64,000 bases of DNA from Spirochaetota bacterium (GTDB taxonomy: Bacteria; Spirochaetota; Spirochaetia; Treponematales; Rectinemataceae). The stretch is from NCBI GenBank assembly GCA_029265615.1, contig JAJUIB010000016.1:1-64000 (forward strand), given 5' to 3'. This document shows, one piece after another, positions 29,945 to 39,071 of this stretch (within the stretch, counting starts at the first letter, position 1; each line of letters starts with the position of its first letter). The notes below the pieces were generated by a model. It did no database searches. It was given only the letters and a program-made list of their open reading frames with translations, and had not been told where the DNA came from. Made by a program: the position numbers and the translations under genes.

Positions 29945-30682
29945 TTAAACGCGCGCCGTTTTCCGCGCATAGAGCTTGCGCCTGCCTGCGCGGCCGACTT
30001 CGACAAGGAGCCCGGCGCGTGCATAGGCGTACAGGAGCTTCCGCACACGCTCGGGCGCTACGCCGAGAGCCTCGCCCAAGCCGCGCGAATCAAAAGGTGT
30101 GGCAAGATCGCGCGGAATGAGCGAAAGCCAGTCGCTTCGTGTCGTAAGCCGCCGCGACGACAGAAGCTCTTCGAGCATGCGGTCGGCCGTGCGGTCGCCG
30201 CGCCGTTTCCAGGAGCCCGAACCATCGCGGACTCGGAGCACGGCGTCACGGACAAACACCACCTCAAACGACACGCGCGGCGCGGCGATGAGCGCGCTTG
30301 CGTGCACGAGCTCGTCGAAAAGCTGGTAGATGTCGCCGTGCTTGGGGCTCCGCCGCTCCGAGACAAGCTCACCCGAATCGGGATTAAGACGCCTGATGCG
30401 CGTCTCCACGGCGATGGGATAGACGACGCGGACACGATGGCCCCGCGCGGCAAGATAGAGTACCTTGGGAGCGAGCTTCCCGAGCCCAACGGTTTGCACC
30501 TCGAGGAGCTCGCCGTCCGCCTTCACGAGGTCGACCACCTTGCCGTCGACGGGAACCTCGAATCGGTCGCCCGGCCCCGCAAGCCGCCTTTTGAGCTCGG
30601 CGTGGAGGCTTCCCTCGGCGTATAGGTTGATACCTGCGTGCTCGGCGAGCTCGGTGAGGGAAGATGCAGTCCGCGCGGGCAT
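29945..30682 (-). CDS. Unknown protein: PD-(D/E)XK-nuclease-like core plus winged helix
   Basis: 245 residues. The first 75 residues contain a Glu-bearing helix (GSLHAELKRRL), then VPVDGKVVDLVKADGELLEVQT followed by an Ala/Leu-rich helix and a VRVVYPI strand. This order (E, then D, then E-x-Q on the next strand) fits a PD-(D/E)XK core with Gln in place of Lys. The last 90 residues (DWLSLIPRDLATPF; LGEALGVAPERVRKLLYAYA) look like a winged helix with a basic end. Single gene with no clear operon partner. Could be a repair or restriction-related nuclease, or an inactive DNA-binding relative. Confidence 0.6.
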   Translation of the reverse strand: MPARTASSLTELAEHAGINLYAEGSLHAELKRRLAGPGDRFEVPVDGKVVDLVKADGELLEVQTVGLGKLAPKVLYLAARGHRVRVVYPIAVETRIRRLNPDSGELVSERRSPKHGDIYQLFDELVHASALIAAPRVSFEVVFVRDAVLRVRDGSGSWKRRGDRTADRMLEELLSSRRLTTRSDWLSLIPRDLATPFDSRGLGEALGVAPERVRKLLYAYARAGLLVEVGRAGRRKLYARKTARV

Positions 30683-30693
30683 GCCGCACTATA

Positions 30694-30730
30694 GCCCCGC
30701 CCCTGAGCGAAGGCAATACGGGGGCGGGGC
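30694..30730 (-). terminator. Large GC stem-loop after the NapH-pair operon
   Basis: GCCCCGCCCC (30694-30703) and GGGGCGGGGC (30721-30730) form a perfect 10-bp stem with a 17-base loop, 12 bases beyond the stop of the 30742-31578 gene. There is no U-run, so it may be a Rho-assisted end or a 3' protecting structure. Confidence 0.45.
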
Positions 30731-30741
30731 GGTTTTCCGCG

Positions 30742-31578
30742 CTATTTGGGCGCAAGCGCCGAAAGCCTCTCCTTCATCTCGGAAAACGAAAGGCCCTTGG
30801 CCGCGCAGTAGTCGCGCACCGTTTCGGAAGGCTTTCCAAGGCCGCCAAGAAGCGCTTCGATGGCCGCAAGGTCAAAGCCCCAGGATTTAAGGTCGCCGAA
30901 CGTGGTTTTTCCGGTGACGGTCCCCGCCGTGGCTACATGCGTCTCGCCGGCTCCCGTTGTACCGCCTGCACCCCCCGCCGCGCCGCCAGCGGACAAAGCG
31001 GTGGCGGCAGGCGCGGACGTGGCGGCCGCCTGCGCGCTACCGCCAGCGGGCGGCACGGCGACCTGCGCGGTGCTCGTCTTTCCCGCTTCGGCGCTCGGCT
31101 GCGGGAAGGCCCGCGTGGCGGCGGCTTCGATCGCGGCGCGATCCCCTCTACCCTCCGCGCGGAGCACCGCGATCGCGGAAAGCGGCAATATTGTGTCCGC
31201 CTCGGGCGCATGCGGTAGCCCCGTATACAGGGCGACAAAAAGCCGCACGGAATCGGTGCCGATCTCCGAACCCGCGGGCAAACCCATAGCGGCGTACTTT
31301 GCCTCGAGGCTGTTCGCTTTGTCCGTCGCGGAAGCAGCCCCGAAGGCCGTAAGAATGCTAGCTACGGGGATATTGAAGGCCTTCCCCACATCCGCCCAGG
31401 TATAGGAGCCACGAATGTCCCCCGGACTCGGCATGCCCGCGAATTCGCCCGTTTTGATGCGGGCAGGCTCCTTCGTATTCTGCGTCTTCCACAGACCGAG
31501 TCCCGCAGAAAGCGCGATGCCGCCAAACACGGCGCCAAGGACAAGGACGCCGAGCGTCCGCGTGTTGACGCGTATCAT
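30742..31578 (-). CDS. Membrane-anchored protein with two copies of a small helical domain, partner of the NapH-like protein
   Basis: 278 residues. One N-terminal membrane anchor (LGVLVLGAVFGGIALSAGLGL), then DIRGSYTWADVGKAFNIPV, a helix-turn module often seen appended to NapH/NosR-like ferredoxin proteins. After a long Ala/Gly/Thr-rich flexible linker (about residues 150-225) a second related module reads GKTTFGDLKSWGFDLAAIEA and LGKPSETVRDYCAAKGLSF. No cofactor motif. It overlaps the ferredoxin membrane gene by ATGA, so it is probably a periplasmic scaffold of that electron-transfer unit. Confidence 0.7.
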   Translation of the reverse strand: MIRVNTRTLGVLVLGAVFGGIALSAGLGLWKTQNTKEPARIKTGEFAGMPSPGDIRGSYTWADVGKAFNIPVASILTAFGAASATDKANSLEAKYAAMGLPAGSEIGTDSVRLFVALYTGLPHAPEADTILPLSAIAVLRAEGRGDRAAIEAAATRAFPQPSAEAGKTSTAQVAVPPAGGSAQAAATSAPAATALSAGGAAGGAGGTTGAGETHVATAGTVTGKTTFGDLKSWGFDLAAIEALLGGLGKPSETVRDYCAAKGLSFSEMKERLSALAPK

Positions 31579-32453
31579 ACCGCGCCTCCTTTGGCGGCCG
31601 CCGTACCGGACTCCTCAAGCCGCCCCGCGGCAAGCTCAACCGTTCCGGGAACAGGACATGCCGCCTCGCTCGTGCACATAAGACAGCTTATGCATTGATG
31701 GTCGCGAACGAGGGTCGCCCCCTCGACCTCGATGTTCATGGGACAGGCCCGTGTACAGGCATGACAGGCGATGCAGGTCGAGGCCTTGCGCCTGATGCCG
31801 AAAATGCGTAGCAGGTTGAACAAGCCGAGGAATGCACCGTAAGGACAGGCATATTTGCAGAAAGGCCGTTCGATGGCGAGCGAGGCGAGAACCGTGAGGC
31901 CGAGCGCGACAAAGCCCCCCACCGCAACCTCTCCCGTCCAAAAATTAAAAAGAGCATAGTAGGGATCATAGTCCTGGAAAAAAAGTTTCCCCGAGACGAT
32001 CGTCATGTAGCTCACCCAGACGAAAACGCCGTACCGGAGAAAGCGAAGCGCCTTGTCGAGCCTGGGAGGGAGGAGCGCGTTGTAGCGTTTGCCGAAGAGC
32101 CTCTTCCCAATCTTGCCTATCCATTCCTGGAAGCTACCGAAGGGGCAGGCCCAGCCGCAGATCGCGGGTCCAAAAAGGAGCGCAAGAACGAGCGAGATGA
32201 CCGCCAGGACAACGGAGGACTGGTGTACCTTTTTGACGAGCGTGCCAGCGCTCGCAAGCTGCCAGAACGACACCACCCCGCCGAAGGGACAGATCGCGTG
32301 AAGCGATGCAGAGCCCGCAAGGGGGAGTTCGACGCCGCGTTCCTTGAGTGCGCTCGTCGTCACGATGAGCGCGACGAGCACGAAGAAAAACACCTGAATA
32401 ACGCGCCGCCATACTTGGGCCGAGCGGCGCCGTGCCATTGCACGTTCGGGCAT
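31575..32453 (-). CDS. NapH/CcoG-like 4Fe-4S membrane protein
   Basis: 292 residues. Four or five membrane segments carry the two CxxxCP motifs of this class, CGWACPFGSFQEW and CKYACPYGAF. The C-terminal cytoplasmic part has two [4Fe-4S] sites, CIACHACTRACP and the less regular CISCLMCTSEAACP (an extra residue before the last Cys). NapH-like proteins move electrons from quinol or a flavoprotein across the inner membrane. No NapG, RnfG or FMN-binding protein is next to it, so the acceptor is unknown. Confidence 0.88.
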   Translation of the reverse strand: MPERAMARRRSAQVWRRVIQVFFFVLVALIVTTSALKERGVELPLAGSASLHAICPFGGVVSFWQLASAGTLVKKVHQSSVVLAVISLVLALLFGPAICGWACPFGSFQEWIGKIGKRLFGKRYNALLPPRLDKALRFLRYGVFVWVSYMTIVSGKLFFQDYDPYYALFNFWTGEVAVGGFVALGLTVLASLAIERPFCKYACPYGAFLGLFNLLRIFGIRRKASTCIACHACTRACPMNIEVEGATLVRDHQCISCLMCTSEAACPVPGTVELAAGRLEESGTAAAKGGAV

Positions 32454-32715: not shown

Positions 32716-33183
32716 TTAATGCCCTTCGCCGCGCGCCATTTTGACGCCATGCTCCAAGAGCGGCGCAAGAAGCGCCGCGCAAAAGCGCGCGGCGCGCTCG
32801 CTTCCGGGGAAGTTCACGACATACTGCATGCCGCGCATCCCCGCCTCGCCGCGCGAGAACACGGAGTTCGGCGTCTCCTCGAGCGAGCGCAGGCGGAGAT
32901 ACTCCGCGATGCCGGGCATAGCACGGTCGCAATACGCGCGGGTCGCCTCGGGCGTACGGTCGCGGGGCGAGGGGCCCGTGCCCCCCGTCGTGATGATCCA
33001 ATCCGCGTCCGGGTGCCTGCCCAAGGCGGCGAGCACCGAGGACTCGCCGTCGGGAACAACCTCGCGCTCGATCTCCGCCTCCGGGAGCGCCGCGCGAAGG
33101 CACTCCTCGATCGCGGGCCCCGAACGGTCGGCGTACACGCCCGCGGCGGCCCTATCCGATACGGTAACGACCGCGATCCGCAC
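32716..33183 (-). CDS. mog: Molybdopterin adenylyltransferase (MogA/MoaB family)
   Basis: 155 residues. VVTVSDRAAAGVYADRSGP, TTGGTGPSPRDRTPEAT and VNFPGSERAARFC match the molybdopterin-binding adenylyltransferase fold. It adenylates molybdopterin before metal insertion by MoeA. Last gene of the tungstate/cofactor operon. Its start lies 32 bases inside the end of the MOSC gene, so coupling is likely. Confidence 0.92.
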   Translation of the reverse strand: MRIAVVTVSDRAAAGVYADRSGPAIEECLRAALPEAEIEREVVPDGESSVLAALGRHPDADWIITTGGTGPSPRDRTPEATRAYCDRAMPGIAEYLRLRSLEETPNSVFSRGEAGMRGMQYVVNFPGSERAARFCAALLAPLLEHGVKMARGEGH

Positions 33184-33649
33184 GACGCACCTCCCCCCCC
33201 CGTATGACGCGCGCGAATATCCCCTTGCGCGGCATCACGCAATCACCGACAAGCCTCCTGATCTCGCAGGCGGCATGGCACTCCTTGCCGATCCTCGAGA
33301 CCTCGAGCACCGCCTCGCCCATTTCGATCCTCGTGCCGATGGGTAGCTCGTGGAGAGCGACGCCGCGCGTCGTGACGTTTTCCGCGAAGTCACCGGGTCG
33401 GATGCCGTCAACGTCCGCCTTGATGCAACCGGACACGCGCCCCGAACGAAGGAGCTCGTCGGCGGCCTCGATTTCCTCGACCGCGAGAAATGAAACCTGG
33501 CGGTCCTCAGCCCCTCCTGCGTGGGCGTCGCACGCGACGCCCTTACCCGCCTCGAGGAGCACGGTATCAACGGGCTTTTTTCTGACGCCCTTCCGATCTG
33601 AAACGTTGAGCGAAACTATTTCGAATTCCCCCATAGGTGCAATCGGCAT
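33152..33649 (-). CDS. MOSC-domain protein
   Basis: 165 residues from ATG 33649; the stop of moaC and this start share a base (TGATG). A KGVRKKPVDTVLL strand, DAHAGG and QVSFLAVEEI, then CHAACEIRRLVGDCVMPRKG contain the MOSC Cys pattern. MOSC domains bind molybdopterin or transfer sulfur to it; stand-alone versions occur in moa operons. Probably handles the tungsten or molybdenum pterin here. Confidence 0.9.
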   Translation of the reverse strand: MPIAPMGEFEIVSLNVSDRKGVRKKPVDTVLLEAGKGVACDAHAGGAEDRQVSFLAVEEIEAADELLRSGRVSGCIKADVDGIRPGDFAENVTTRGVALHELPIGTRIEMGEAVLEVSRIGKECHAACEIRRLVGDCVMPRKGIFARVIRGGEVRRADRGRYRIG

Positions 33650-34113
33650 CACGACACCTCCTCCTTGGTCTTTTCGACGAGCCTGATCTCCCCGATGCGC
33701 ATATCCTTGTCGACCGCCTTGCACATGTCGTACACCGTGAGCGCGGCAACGGAGACCGCAGTCAGCGCCTCCATCTCAATGCCGGTCTTGTCGGTGCAGA
33801 CCGCCCTCGCCTCGATGGCGACCCCCCGTCCGTCGAGGGCGAGGTGGACTTTCACATGCTCGATCTCGATGTTGTGGCACAGAGGAATGAGCTCGCTCGT
33901 CCGCTTGGCAGCCATCACACCCGCAATGCGCGCGGCCGCAAGAACATCGCCCTTCGAAAGCGCGTTTGCGCGTACGAGCTCGATCGTCGACGGCGAAAGG
34001 TCGATACGCCCCGCGGCCCAAGCCGTGCGCCGCATTCGCGGCTTTGCCGAGACATCGACCATCCGCGCCTTTCCCCCCTCGTCTACATGCGTAAGCCCTT
34101 CCTGCACGATCAC
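33649..34113 (-). CDS. moaC: Cyclic pyranopterin monophosphate synthase MoaC
   Basis: 154 residues from GTG 34113, which has ATAGGAGG just upstream and overlaps the moaA stop as GTGA. THVDEGGKARMVDVS, SELIPLCHNIEIEHV, KTGIEMEALTAVSVAALTVY and the catalytic Lys/Asp region KAVDKDMRIG are hallmark MoaC motifs. It converts the MoaA product to cPMP. Confidence 0.95.
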   Translation of the reverse strand: MIVQEGLTHVDEGGKARMVDVSAKPRMRRTAWAAGRIDLSPSTIELVRANALSKGDVLAAARIAGVMAAKRTSELIPLCHNIEIEHVKVHLALDGRGVAIEARAVCTDKTGIEMEALTAVSVAALTVYDMCKAVDKDMRIGEIRLVEKTKEEVS

Positions 34114-34907
34114 CCTCCTATCTGGCCGACCTCGAGGCCCGTACAAATCCCCCCTCGTTTGGGCTTTTGCGCGACGGCGGTAGCGATGCTCCCTTCAAGA
34201 TCGCCGAAATCCACCTTGACTGCGACGTTCCCGTGCAAGCAGGGCCTAAGCGTCCCGTCCGCGAGTAGCCTGAGCCGGTTGCACTGCTCACACCGTGGCG
34301 GCCGATCGTAGTCGCCGCCGTCGCGTTTCTCCTCTGACAAGCGGTAGCGCGCGATGAACTGGATTTCGGCGCCTATATATTTCGCATAACGCCTAAGCTC
34401 ATCGAAGTCAGCATCGGTCGAATCCTCAAGCGCGACGACGTTGAGCTTGACGGGCATGCCCGCATGTCGGGCTGAGTCGATACCTTCGAGGGCATCCGCA
34501 AGCCTGCCGCCCCGGGTCACCGCCGCGTACCGCGCCGCATCAAGCGTGTCGAGCGAAACGTTGACCGAATCAAGGCCGCGCGCGGCGAGCTCGGCGGCGA
34601 CCGGGGCGAGGAGCGTGCCGTTCGTTGTCATGGCAAGTCGCTCGATGCCCTGAACCCGCGCGAGTATTCCGACGAGTTCGGGAAGCCCGCTTCGGACAAG
34701 CGGCTCGCCGCCCGTGAGGCGTAGCTTGCGAAAGCCGAGCCGCGCGGCGGCAGACGCAACCGAGGCGATCTGCTCAAAGGAAAGGACCTCCTCGCGGGGG
34801 AGGAGCGGAACGCCCTCCGCGGGCATGCAGTAGACGCAGCGAAGATTGCAGCGGTCGGTCACGGAGACGCGGAGGTAGCTTATCTCACGACCGTATGAGT
34901 CGCGCAT
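34110..34907 (-). CDS. moaA: Compact GTP 3',8-cyclase MoaA (radical SAM)
   Basis: 265 residues from ATG 34907, inside the end of moeA. The SAM cluster motif CNLRCVYC, LTGGEPLVR, the second cluster CEQCNRLRLLADGTLRPC and the C-terminal Gly-Gly (GQIGG) are all kept. It is about 60 residues shorter than usual: between IQFIARYRL and PPRCEQC only about 14 residues remain where standard MoaA has about 55. Rest of the barrel is intact. It converts GTP to 3',8-cH2GTP with MoaC. Confidence 0.9.
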   Translation of the reverse strand: MRDSYGREISYLRVSVTDRCNLRCVYCMPAEGVPLLPREEVLSFEQIASVASAAARLGFRKLRLTGGEPLVRSGLPELVGILARVQGIERLAMTTNGTLLAPVAAELAARGLDSVNVSLDTLDAARYAAVTRGGRLADALEGIDSARHAGMPVKLNVVALEDSTDADFDELRRYAKYIGAEIQFIARYRLSEEKRDGGDYDRPPRCEQCNRLRLLADGTLRPCLHGNVAVKVDFGDLEGSIATAVAQKPKRGGICTGLEVGQIGG

Positions 34908-36108
34908 CGACCATGCTCCCTTCCTCGAGCCGCTCGATCCCGAGCTCCATGCGGACAAGGCAGTCGGCCTCGGCAAGCACGTTGAGCATCGAGGATCCGT
35001 GGTAGGAAAGCGGCTTGATGCAGAGCCCCCCGGGCTCTGCATCAAGCCGCGCGGGCAGGAATTCGACACGGTCAGCACCCTTCCGCGAAAGCGGTGTGGC
35101 AAGCCGTGCGCGAACAATTCTTGAGTCCACGGGCTGCGGAAGCCCCATGCGCGCCTTAAGATGGGGGCGCACGAGCAGTTCGAAGTTGACAAAGGTGGAA
35201 ACGGGATTGCCAGGAAGGCCGAAGACTGCCTTATGCGCGCGCGTCCCGAAATAGGTCGGCTTACCGGGACGCATCGCAAGTTTGTGAAAAATCGGCTCGA
35301 CGCCGCAGGCCTCGAGGGCGCGCGGCACATGGTCAAAGTCGCCCATCGACACCCCGCCCGAGACGAGAACGACCTCGCATTCGTCGAGGGCCTGCGCGAG
35401 CGCCGATGTAAGCGCTGCGGGCTTGTCGGGGAAGGCACCGTAAAACCGCGCCTGTGCGCCGATGGCGCGCGCCTGGGCGGCAAGCTGCGGGCCGTTTGAG
35501 TCATAGATCGAGGCAGCCTTAAGTGCGTCTTGTACGTTTACAAGCTCATCACCGGTCGAGATGACGCCAACGCAAGGCCGCCGCGCCACCTCGACTTCCG
35601 CTATGCCGGCAGAAGCGAGGATGCCGATGTCCTGCGGCGCGAGGATGCGCGGCTCAAGAAGGATGGCGCCGCGGCCAAGGTTTTCTCCCCGGCGGATGAT
35701 GTTGGAAACCGACTCGGGCCGCAGAAAGCGCACACAGGCGGCACCGGAGGCGTCGCGCCCCGCGTCCTCGCTCCACTCTATGCGTTGTACGCCCGCGGCC
35801 CCGTCAGGGAGGGGCGCACCCGTCATGATCCGGACACATTCGCCGGGCGCAAGCTGCCGGGGCGCCGGGGAGCCGGCGGCAACCGTCCCGACCACACGAT
35901 AGACGCCGCGCCCGCTAGAGCAGTCAGGAGCGAAGGCATAGCCATCCATCGCCGATTTGTCGAAGGGCGGATGATCGATCGGCGAGACGACGGGCCGAGG
36001 GAGGGCGCGCCCGAGCGCCTCGTCGAGCGGAACGCGCTCGAAATGGGGCGGCGGCGCCGCTTCGACGACGAGGCGGAGAGCCTCGTCGGGGTGGAGGTTT
36101 TCACGCAC
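34885..36108 (-). CDS. moeA: Molybdopterin molybdenumtransferase MoeA
   Basis: 407 residues. VVSPIDHPPFDKSAMDGYAF, PRQLAPGECVRIMTGAPLP, VISTGDELV and VSGGVSMGDFDHVPRALEACG are the MoeA domains in order, followed by the beta-barrel domain IV. It inserts the metal into adenylated molybdopterin; given the tungstate transporter in the same operon, the metal may be tungsten. It ends over the moaA start by 23 bases. Confidence 0.94.
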   Translation of the reverse strand: MRENLHPDEALRLVVEAAPPPHFERVPLDEALGRALPRPVVSPIDHPPFDKSAMDGYAFAPDCSSGRGVYRVVGTVAAGSPAPRQLAPGECVRIMTGAPLPDGAAGVQRIEWSEDAGRDASGAACVRFLRPESVSNIIRRGENLGRGAILLEPRILAPQDIGILASAGIAEVEVARRPCVGVISTGDELVNVQDALKAASIYDSNGPQLAAQARAIGAQARFYGAFPDKPAALTSALAQALDECEVVLVSGGVSMGDFDHVPRALEACGVEPIFHKLAMRPGKPTYFGTRAHKAVFGLPGNPVSTFVNFELLVRPHLKARMGLPQPVDSRIVRARLATPLSRKGADRVEFLPARLDAEPGGLCIKPLSYHGSSMLNVLAEADCLVRMELGIERLEEGSMVDARLIRS

Positions 36109-36110
36109 GG

Positions 36111-36791
36111 CTATTCTTTCCTTTCGGCGACGGTTCCGCCCTCAACATGGAGGACGCGGGCGCCAAGCGCCTTTATGAGATCGCGGTCATGGGTCGCAAC
36201 AACGAGCGTCGCGCCGCGCTCCGCCTCCGAGGCGAGGGCGTGCGCGATGAGGGCCCGTGCCCCGGCGTCCGCATTCGCCGTGGGTTCGTCGAGGAGGAGG
36301 ATGTCGGCGCCCGAGCACAGCGCGCGAGCGAGCGCGACGCGTTGCGCCTCTCCGCCCGAAAGCCCTCCGGTCCGCCGTTCGCCATAGCCTTCAAGTCCGA
36401 GGCGAATAAGCTGTTCCTCCGCATGTCCGTGCGCGGCCGCTCGGCCCACCCGCGCCTCAAGAACAATGCGCAGGTTGTGCGATACCGTTCCTGAGAAGAG
36501 CCAAGGGTGCTGGTGGACGTAAACGCTCCGCCTGCGCAGCGCCGCGGAGCACGTTGCGCGCTCTCCAAGAAAGAGGACGCTTCCGCCGCTTGGCTCGATG
36601 AGTCCGTTGAGGAGCTTGAGGATGCTCGTCTTGCCCGCGCCGTTCGGGCCTAAGAGCGCAAGCCGTTCGCCCTTGAAAATCGCGAGGCGGGGGATTGCGA
36701 GAACGGGCCGCCCGTCTTGAGGCAGTCGGCGGCGCGGCGGGCCATAGCAGAGTTCCAGCCGCTCGATCGTGAAAAGGGGCTCAGCGCTCAT
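36111..36791 (-). CDS. tupC: Tungstate-type ABC transporter ATPase
   Basis: 226 residues. Walker A GPNGAGKTS, LSGGEAQRVALARAL and Walker B ILLLDEPTANAD are intact. Its start lies 11 bases inside the permease end and its stop is 2 bases before moeA. Together with the TupA- and TupB-like proteins it forms a high-affinity oxyanion importer. Confidence 0.9.
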   Translation of the reverse strand: MSAEPLFTIERLELCYGPPRRRLPQDGRPVLAIPRLAIFKGERLALLGPNGAGKTSILKLLNGLIEPSGGSVLFLGERATCSAALRRRSVYVHQHPWLFSGTVSHNLRIVLEARVGRAAAHGHAEEQLIRLGLEGYGERRTGGLSGGEAQRVALARALCSGADILLLDEPTANADAGARALIAHALASEAERGATLVVATHDRDLIKALGARVLHVEGGTVAERKE

Positions 36792-37452
36792 GGGGCCTCA
36801 ACGCGTGGACCGCGAAGTTGACGGCAAGAGCGATCGAAAAAAGCGCAATACCGAAAGCGGCGGCGCGTCCGAACTCGCCCGTCGAGGTGTCGAGGGCGAT
36901 GGAGGTGGTCATGGTCCGCGTGACGAAGCGGATGTTGCCCCCGAGGAGCATGGCCACGCCGACTTCTCCGGTAACACGGCCGAAGGCGGAGACGAAGGCG
37001 CCCGCCATTACGCTTGCCCCCTCGCGGAGGACCGCGGCAAACCTGTGCGGCCCCCGGATGCCAAGCGTTTCAAGGGTCTCGAAAAAACGCACGTCGAGGC
37101 GCGCAAGGCCGGACCAGACGAGGTTCGCGACAAGGGGGAAGGCGAGGAGCGCTTCACCAAGCACGATGCCCTGCGGGGCGAAGAGCCAGCCAAGCGAGCC
37201 CAAGGGGCCCGTCCGCGATATAAGCGCATACACGGCAAGGCCGATCACCACCGTCGGAAGGGCAGTGAGCGCACCCGTGACGGCGAGCGCCATCCTACGG
37301 AGGCGCGTGTCCTTTCCCGCCATCCAGACGCCGAACGCAACGCCGGGAAACAGCGAAAAGAGCGTCGCAAAAAAGGAAAACTCTAGGCTCCGGGCTATGG
37401 TGCCCCAGGTCTCCGGATCGCCCGAAACAAGAAGGCGGAGCGCCTCGCGCAC
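36781..37452 (-). CDS. tupB: Tungstate-type ABC transporter permease
   Basis: 223 residues from GTG 37452, which has ATAGGGG upstream and begins 10 bases after the tupA stop; a longer frame reads back through tupA and is rejected. About five to six membrane segments, with FETLETLGIRGPHRFAAV as the ATPase-contact loop and GEVGVAMLLGGNIRFVTR typical of TupB/WtpB-like permeases. Confidence 0.9.
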   Translation of the reverse strand: MREALRLLVSGDPETWGTIARSLEFSFFATLFSLFPGVAFGVWMAGKDTRLRRMALAVTGALTALPTVVIGLAVYALISRTGPLGSLGWLFAPQGIVLGEALLAFPLVANLVWSGLARLDVRFFETLETLGIRGPHRFAAVLREGASVMAGAFVSAFGRVTGEVGVAMLLGGNIRFVTRTMTTSIALDTSTGEFGRAAAFGIALFSIALAVNFAVHALRPHER

Positions 37453-37462
37453 TGCGTGCCCC

Positions 37463-38275
37463 CTATCGGTAGAGGCGGAAGCAGCGTTCCCCACCAAGCT
37501 CATAGGCTTCGATAAGCGCCTGCCCCCGCGCACTCATGAGCCAATCCTCAAGCGCACGCGCACCCTCGGCGTTCACCCCGGGCCGCCGCGCGGGATTCAC
37601 CCTGATGACGGCATAGGGATTGCGGAGCACCGCATCCCCCCGAAAGAGCGCCACAAGGCCGAGGCGCCCGCGCAGTGCACACCAGGTTGCATGGTCGACC
37701 AGTGTGTATCCTCCAAGCTCATCGGCCATGCGGAGCGTCTGCGCCATACCCTGCCCCGCCTCGCGGTACCAGATGCGACCTGAGGGCGCAAGACCGGCGG
37801 AGCGCCACACTTCGCGTTCCTTCGCATCGGTGCCTGATTTGTCGCCACGGGACACGAAGGGCGCACCCGCGCGGAATATCGCGGCAAAGGCCTCGGACGC
37901 GCTTCGCGCCGCAGCGACCCCTGCGGGGTCGGAGGCCGGACCGACCACCACGAACTCGTTGTACATGAGCTCGCGGCGATCGATACCGGCGCCTTCGGCG
38001 ATGAAGCCTGCCTCCGCATCGCGGTCGTGAACGAGGAGGATGTCCGCGTTGCCGTCCCGGCCGAGCCTGATCGCGGCGCCGGAACCGACGGCGGTCACGT
38101 CGACGCGATATCCGCTCTCCGCGGCAAATGCGGGGATAAGAACGTCGAGAAGCCCCGAGTCACGAAGGCTCGTCGTCGTAGCAAGGCGGATGCGGGGATT
38201 CGCAGGCGGACGCCCCTGTGCGTACACACAGGAGGCGAGTAGGAGGGCGGTGACAAGGGCGCAGAGCCGCTTCAT
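37463..38275 (-). CDS. tupA: Tungstate-binding protein of ABC transporter
   Basis: 270 residues. Signal peptide or lipobox-like MKRLCALVTALLLASC, then the TupA anion-binding motif ATTTSLRDSGLLD, the ADILLVHD strand and FVSRGDKSGTD. The TTTS motif separates TupA from molybdate-specific ModA. First gene of the eight-gene tup-moe-moa-MOSC-mog operon, so tungstate uptake and pterin cofactor assembly are made together, suggesting tungsten enzymes in this cell. Confidence 0.93.
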   Translation of the reverse strand: MKRLCALVTALLLASCVYAQGRPPANPRIRLATTTSLRDSGLLDVLIPAFAAESGYRVDVTAVGSGAAIRLGRDGNADILLVHDRDAEAGFIAEGAGIDRRELMYNEFVVVGPASDPAGVAAARSASEAFAAIFRAGAPFVSRGDKSGTDAKEREVWRSAGLAPSGRIWYREAGQGMAQTLRMADELGGYTLVDHATWCALRGRLGLVALFRGDAVLRNPYAVIRVNPARRPGVNAEGARALEDWLMSARGQALIEAYELGGERCFRLYR

Positions 38276-38278
38276 GGG

Positions 38279-38409
38279 GAGGTCTCCTTTCCAAACGGGA
38301 GGCCCGGAGGTTTCCCTGCCGGACCCTCGGCCGCGCGCATGGAGCGCGCAGCCTCGATCGCGCCGCCCTGGCAGAGGCTTAAGGGCGCTTCGCGATTCGG
38401 AGCGGGCTT
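38279..38409 (-). ncRNA. Candidate Moco/Tuco riboswitch leader of the tup-moa operon
   Basis: The minus-strand leader begins CGCTCCGAA near the predicted transcription start and ends with GCCTCCCGTTTGGAAAGG just before the tupA start. From memory, these blocks match conserved 5' and 3' parts of the Moco RNA family (CTCCGA near the start; GCCTCCC followed by GGAAAGGAG at the end). The final GGAG is the tupA Shine-Dalgarno, and the CCTCC block can pair with it, implying translational shut-off when cofactor is plentiful. The operon content is exactly what such RNAs control; Tuco variants accompany tungstate genes. Confidence 0.7.
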
Positions 38410-38438
38410 ACGCTAGCAGAACGGCAATCCGTCGTCAA
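38410..38438 (-). promoter_or_regulatory. Predicted promoter of the tup-moa operon
   Basis: On the minus strand TTGACG (38433-38438) and TAGCGT (38410-38415) are 17 bases apart. The -10 box is weak (three of six). Initiation would fall right at the start of the riboswitch-like leader, giving a 5' leader of about 125 bases. Confidence 0.45.
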
Positions 38439-38546
38439 GCGCGATAGGCCGCGCCCAGGCCAGACAGCGGGAAATCGCTCGCCGCGCGGCAGCCGTTCTC
38501 GGTATCTTTAAAACGTGATGCGGCAGAAGCCGCGAAAGGGGGCCCC

Positions 38547-39071
38547 ATGTCCGCAAGCGAGGCGAGTAACGGAACGGCGATCATGGGCGGTGGATGCTTT
38601 TGGTGCCTTGAGGCGGCCTTCGAGCTCCTCCCCGGCGTCATTGACGTGGAGAACGGCTACGCAGGCGGCGACCGCCCCGATCCGACCTACGAGGAGGTCT
38701 GCACAGGGCTCACGGGCCACGCGGAAGTCGTTCGCATCACCTTCGATCCGGACAGCGTGTCCTACGAAGAGCTCCTTGAGCTATTTTTTAGGATTCACGA
38801 CCCCACCACCGAAGACCGCCAGGGGGCCGACATCGGTAGCCAGTATCGATCGGTCATCTTCTATCTCGATGAGGAACAGCACCGCGCCGCGGAGGCCGCC
38901 CTGCAGGAGGAGCAGCACCGCCTCGTCGACCCCATCGTCACCGAGCTCCTTCCGGCTCCGCGGTTTTGGCGCGCCGAGGAGTACCACCAGGACTACTTCC
39001 GCACGCACCCCGAAGCGGCCTACTGCCGCGCCGTCATCGCGCCAAAGCTAAAAAAAGCCGGCCTTCGCTAA
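38547..39071 (+). CDS. msrA: Peptide-methionine (S)-S-oxide reductase MsrA
   Basis: 174 residues. GGGCFWCLEAAF holds the nucleophile Cys17; the usual GYAGG, HAEVVRITFDP and later AEEYHQDYF motifs are present. There is no distal resolving Cys pair at the C-terminus, so Cys20 of CFWC or an external reductant may resolve the sulfenic acid. It repairs oxidised methionine. Monocistronic between two unrelated operons. Confidence 0.95.
   Translation: MSASEASNGTAIMGGGCFWCLEAAFELLPGVIDVENGYAGGDRPDPTYEEVCTGLTGHAEVVRITFDPDSVSYEELLELFFRIHDPTTEDRQGADIGSQYRSVIFYLDEEQHRAAEAALQEEQHRLVDPIVTELLPAPRFWRAEEYHQDYFRTHPEAAYCRAVIAPKLKKAGLR

Follow-up and report, generated by a model that had tools for sequence, protein, structure and literature searches.

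A P3-bearing Moco RNA precedes a tungstate uptake and cofactor synthesis operon in a Spirochaetota genome

The Moco RNA motif (Rfam RF01055) occurs in two forms, distinguished by the helix P3. According to Regulski 2008 (PMC2408646), P3-bearing RNAs are found exclusively with MPT/Moco genes, whereas P3-lacking ones accompany Tuco, with tupA and tupB taken as Tuco markers. Upstream of E. coli moaA the RBS lies within P1 and expression is repressed by Moco, while Tuco has no effect on this RNA, which bears P3 (PMC2408646). No direct binding was demonstrated in that study, the cofactor being unstable (PMC2408646). No explanation other than the 2008 correlation has been proposed for how a single riboswitch fold could tell a Mo from a W cofactor, and the open PMC literature searched yielded no direct test of this idea.

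Here we describe a family member that bears P3 despite standing before tupABC. The window, the whole 64-kb stretch of DNA analysed, was searched with cmscan against all of Rfam and gave a single hit, RF01055, on the minus-strand leader 38402-38284, between a divergent msrA-like gene (38547-39071, plus strand) and tupA. The score of 40.5 bits, just 4.5 above the gathering threshold of 36, corresponds to E-values of 3.5e-6 for 64 kb and 4227 families, 3.3e-8 for the local stretch, and 3.5e-8 for the match in its own genome. The first-pass annotation had recognized a Moco-family riboswitch here from CTCCGAA (38402-38396) and GCCTCCCGTTTGGAAAGG (within 38302-38285), and both indeed lie on the minus strand directly upstream of the tupA ATG at 38275. 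It had left the form as Moco/Tuco; the family assignment stands, while a Tuco-type architecture does not fit, since P3 is present.

Helices P1 to P5, whose folding had been anticipated, all form in the RF01055 alignment and in the free fold alike, and the conserved junction nucleotides are in place. The leader stretch folds at -67.4 kcal/mol, compared with -53.9 +/- 4.1 kcal/mol for dinucleotide shuffles, none of 200 being as stable (z -3.3). On the minus strand, the 5' strand of P1 (CUCC, 38399-38402) is followed by P2 (38357-38396), in which the tetraloop-receptor region is degenerate (CCUUAAG/CCAGG, not CCUAAG/UAUGG). P3 (38329-38353) is a 10-bp hairpin, GGCUGCGCGCUCCAUGCGCGCGGCC, delimited by the fold and by comparison with 22 other P3 segments. 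P4 (38300-38326), with its GAAA tetraloop at 38314-38311, and P5 (CCCGUUUGG, 38291-38299) were placed, like the 5' strand of P1, by the RF01055 alignment and the fold. The 3' strand of P1 (GGAG, 38284-38287), assigned from sequence and fold, coincides with the Shine-Dalgarno of tupA, 8 nt upstream of the ATG. The predicted aptamer fold pairs it with CUCC on the 5' side of P1; the CCTCC block to which this pairing had earlier been ascribed sits in P4/P5, where no such pairing is predicted.

The RNA lies upstream of Moco/Tuco transport and synthesis genes, and HMMs bear out the gene order first read from the sequence, tupA-tupB-tupC-moeA-moaA-moaC-MOSC-mog, all on the minus strand. The tungstate-binding protein TupA (37463-38275; NF041772, E 1e-59) has PDB relatives 3LR1 and 5MY5 and intact TTTS and SRGD motifs, the arginine of its SRGDxSGT corresponding to R118 of D. 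alaskensis TupA, which links the leader to tungsten-cofactor genes. TupA and the permease TupB (36781-37533; NF041773, E 2.6e-48) are best family matches, yet both fall below the curated NCBIfam cut-offs; tupB probably starts downstream of the mechanically assigned ORF start. The ATPase gene tupC (36111-36791) was assigned from its ABC_tran match, position and conserved order. There follow moeA (34885-36108; HMMs), the only MoeA gene of the genome; moaA (34110-34919), whose ORF, listed to 35504, starts inside moeA and matches TIGR02666 from residue 200; moaC (33649-34146, mechanical start; TIGR00581, with the MoaC match from about residue 15); a MOSC-domain protein gene (33152-33724; PF03473); and a mog-type molybdopterin adenylyltransferase gene (32716-33183; NF006932, TIGR00177). 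The RNA and the eight genes behind it, in unchanged order, recur in seven relatives, which belong to other genera of the family; the relatives that bear names are Spirochaetota MAGs. About 260 nt beyond mog, the window contains a NapH-like ferredoxin gene and two unassigned ORFs (29945-32453); in another genome (G006), too, mog is followed by homologues of the ferredoxin and of the ORF after it.

P3 is a real, covarying helix. The P3 segment of the leader has a z of -4.3 against mononucleotide shuffles, the mean for 23 segments being -3.3, and compensatory changes occur in the outer layers, with layer 4 occupied by CG, TA, GC, AT, GT and TG. Since P3 is present, the leader is of Moco-type architecture as defined by Regulski 2008. 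Its distribution was surveyed across 84 distinct RF01055 hits from 30 genomes of the family and 50 genomes with TupA relatives, a set of related and partly incomplete genomes; P3 was called by eye with the aid of constrained folds, each set of tandem copies entered the count once, and loci L154 and L184 were left out of the P3 classes. Among tup-linked RNAs, 17 of 25 classifiable ones have P3 and 8 lack it (2 more are outside the classes), and in the window's spirochaete family all 11 have it. The helix is also present before class V WOR (YdhV-type) operons in 8 of 8 cases, one of them seen just to its ydhY. P3 was found in none of four RNAs of other AORs, none of nine before extracellular solute-binding protein operons, one of six before L-glutamate gamma-semialdehyde dehydrogenase genes, and neither of two before purB(-guaB). 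P3 therefore sorts with gene class (Fisher p ~6e-8, kinship of the genomes being ignored) and not along the published Mo/W line; the survey breaks the rule that P3 means Moco only, without naming the metal cofactor sensed.

The surveyed RNAs include several of separate interest. A second P3-bearing RF01055 hit in the same genome (51.1 bits) heads a class V WOR operon, ydhY-ydhV-ydhW-fdhD-tatC (L004:5487-11010, contig C7). A strong hairpin lies 3' of this aptamer and, because it precedes the Shine-Dalgarno, the expression platform differs from that of the tup RNA. A third match in the genome, on contig C16, scored 15.2 bits, below threshold, and was set aside. One Spirochaetota genome has near-identical P3-bearing Moco RNAs upstream of tupA and of tupB, each gene with its own. 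Six loci, including one of the same genus (L038, whose gene matches TIGR01236), carry RNAs, mostly P3-less, whose immediate downstream gene encodes an NAD-type L-glutamate gamma-semialdehyde dehydrogenase. This enzyme contains neither Mo nor W and, by analogy with metE under B12 riboswitches, could act as a backup, free of the cofactor, for a tungsten aldehyde oxidoreductase. In two genomes a P3-less RNA precedes purB, followed in one by guaB (IMP dehydrogenase); these purine genes lead toward GTP, from which the pterin cofactor is made. At nine loci a P3-less RNA precedes an extracellular solute-binding protein, the next protein being, in one case (L175), a weak match to PF00174, the oxidoreductase molybdopterin-binding domain.

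As to the metal, XO-family enzymes normally use Mo and AOR-family enzymes W. The genome encodes four of the former and five of the latter with a single MoeA, and it may use both metals. Neither it nor its genus has a ModB over cut-off. TupABC is the only recognised Mo/W importer of the genome, in which no DMSO-reductase- or sulphite-oxidase-family enzyme was found. With four XO-family enzymes here, and XO-family enzymes in 30 of 30 family genomes, a tungsten-only genome was ruled out. At motif positions assigned in this analysis, the MoeA of the window carries Lys (within RPGKP) and apparently Ser, both of Mo type, where the W-specific MoeA1 of M. extorquens has the Arg and Ala that bias it to W; MoeA residues were accordingly dropped as proof of W. 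With one MoeA, TupABC as the sole recognised importer and both XO and AOR enzymes, P3 is not a safe guide to the metal here: the RNA may sense the Mo-cofactor, the W-cofactor or either.

Two readings of the signal were weighed. One, to which we give a little under even credence, is that P3 does not decide the metal and that the RNA senses tungsto-pterin or the cofactors of both metals. It draws on the tup linkage of 17 P3-bearing RNAs and on the P3-bearing RNAs of the eight class V WOR operons, the enzyme of one organism with TupABC having a preference for W (PMC13328260). In addition, P3-bearing tup RNAs occur in genomes with separate ModABC. Against it stand the E. coli P3-bearing RNA, unresponsive to Tuco (PMC2408646), and the P3-less RNAs on all four W-type AOR operons of the surveyed genomes, which show that P3 still sorts with something. 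Extended to the phylum, and held just as tentatively, P3-bearing RNAs of Spirochaetota may regulate the operons of tungstate uptake and of class V WOR in response to the W cofactor or both, in which case the equation of P3 with Moco and its absence with Tuco would be wrong or lineage-bound.

The other reading, possible although we are inclined to doubt it, keeps P3 as the mark of a strict Moco sensor, as in Regulski 2008, with TupABC also importing molybdate for the XO-family enzymes. The presence of P3 itself, the XO-family enzymes of all 30 family genomes and the Mo-type residues of MoeA favor such a sensor, and in a genus without ModB over cut-off Mo must enter some other way. TupA of DaG20 does bind molybdate at 6 nM, but tungstate at 6 pM (PMC5517513), and known TupA proteins favor tungstate ~1000-fold or more. 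Hard to fit, too, are five genomes that have ModB over cut-off, in which tup has the P3-bearing RNA upstream and the modB contigs are free of RF01055 hits. A Moco signal on tup would not be senseless there, because in the four of these five whose operon could be read through it also holds the shared moeA, moaA and moaC.

For the switch itself, a promoter-like pair of hexamers was recognized by eye and in aligned upstream regions of relatives: TTGACG (38433-38438) and, 17 nt away and 7 nt before the aptamer, TAGCGT (38410-38415), both on the minus strand. Transcription from it would begin roughly at base 1 of the aptamer. The pair lies under the threshold of the automatic promoter scan, which called none; CTTGAC, in an unchanged position, and a TANNNT box recur upstream of most tup-linked relatives. 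As the GGAG of P1 is the Shine-Dalgarno, and GGAG(G) lies 5 to 9 nt before a start codon in all 16 tup-linked P3-bearing RNAs examined, translation-off control is likely. Closing P1 in the ligand-free full leader costs ~3.9 kcal/mol, so that binding energy would be needed and the cofactor could act as the switch. The on-state is not clean, because the Shine-Dalgarno of the ligand-free leader is predicted to pair partly with coding sequence (probability ~0.6, RNAfold).

The leader would thus form the first 119 nt of an mRNA spanning tupA to mog, transcribed from its own promoter. Ample molybdo- or tungsto-pterin cofactor would bind the P2-P5 core and stabilise P1, holding the 5' CUCC on the Shine-Dalgarno and turning tupA translation off, probably together with the genes coupled to it downstream; at low cofactor levels P1 would open and the uptake and synthesis genes would be translated. 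Ligand class, OFF direction and translational platform are inferred by analogy with E. coli moaA and the rest of the family. Taken together, a P3-bearing RF01055 riboswitch with its own promoter and cofactor-driven translational repression of the eight-gene operon is very probably the right explanation. Transcriptional control through a terminator or Rho, which has precedent in the terminators of some Moco RNAs (PMC2408646), appears improbable, with the Shine-Dalgarno inside P1, 8 nt before the ATG, and no intrinsic terminator found by automatic scan in 38150-38650. A functionless chance match, conceivable for GC-rich sequence scoring modestly over threshold, has a negligible probability given the window-wide E-value and is contradicted by conservation of the RNA, in position and architecture, across genera and by the covarying P3.

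The leader RNA is a genuine but ordinary member of the known Moco RNA family, apart from its P3 before tup. P3-bearing and P3-less copies within one genome, with the P3-bearing one on tungstate uptake, offer natural test pairs for the 2008 proposal. The leader shares with the E. coli moaA-type RNA helices P1-P5, P3 among them, the CUCCGA start, the GAAA-capped P4, the CCUCCCG...GGAAAGGAG end, a Shine-Dalgarno inside P1 and cofactor-synthesis genes downstream; it differs in that tupABC, not moaABCDE, comes first and that the P2 tetraloop receptor is degenerate. With the P3-lacking, Tuco-type RNAs of Regulski 2008 it has in common the tup genes downstream, whereas it differs from them in having P3.
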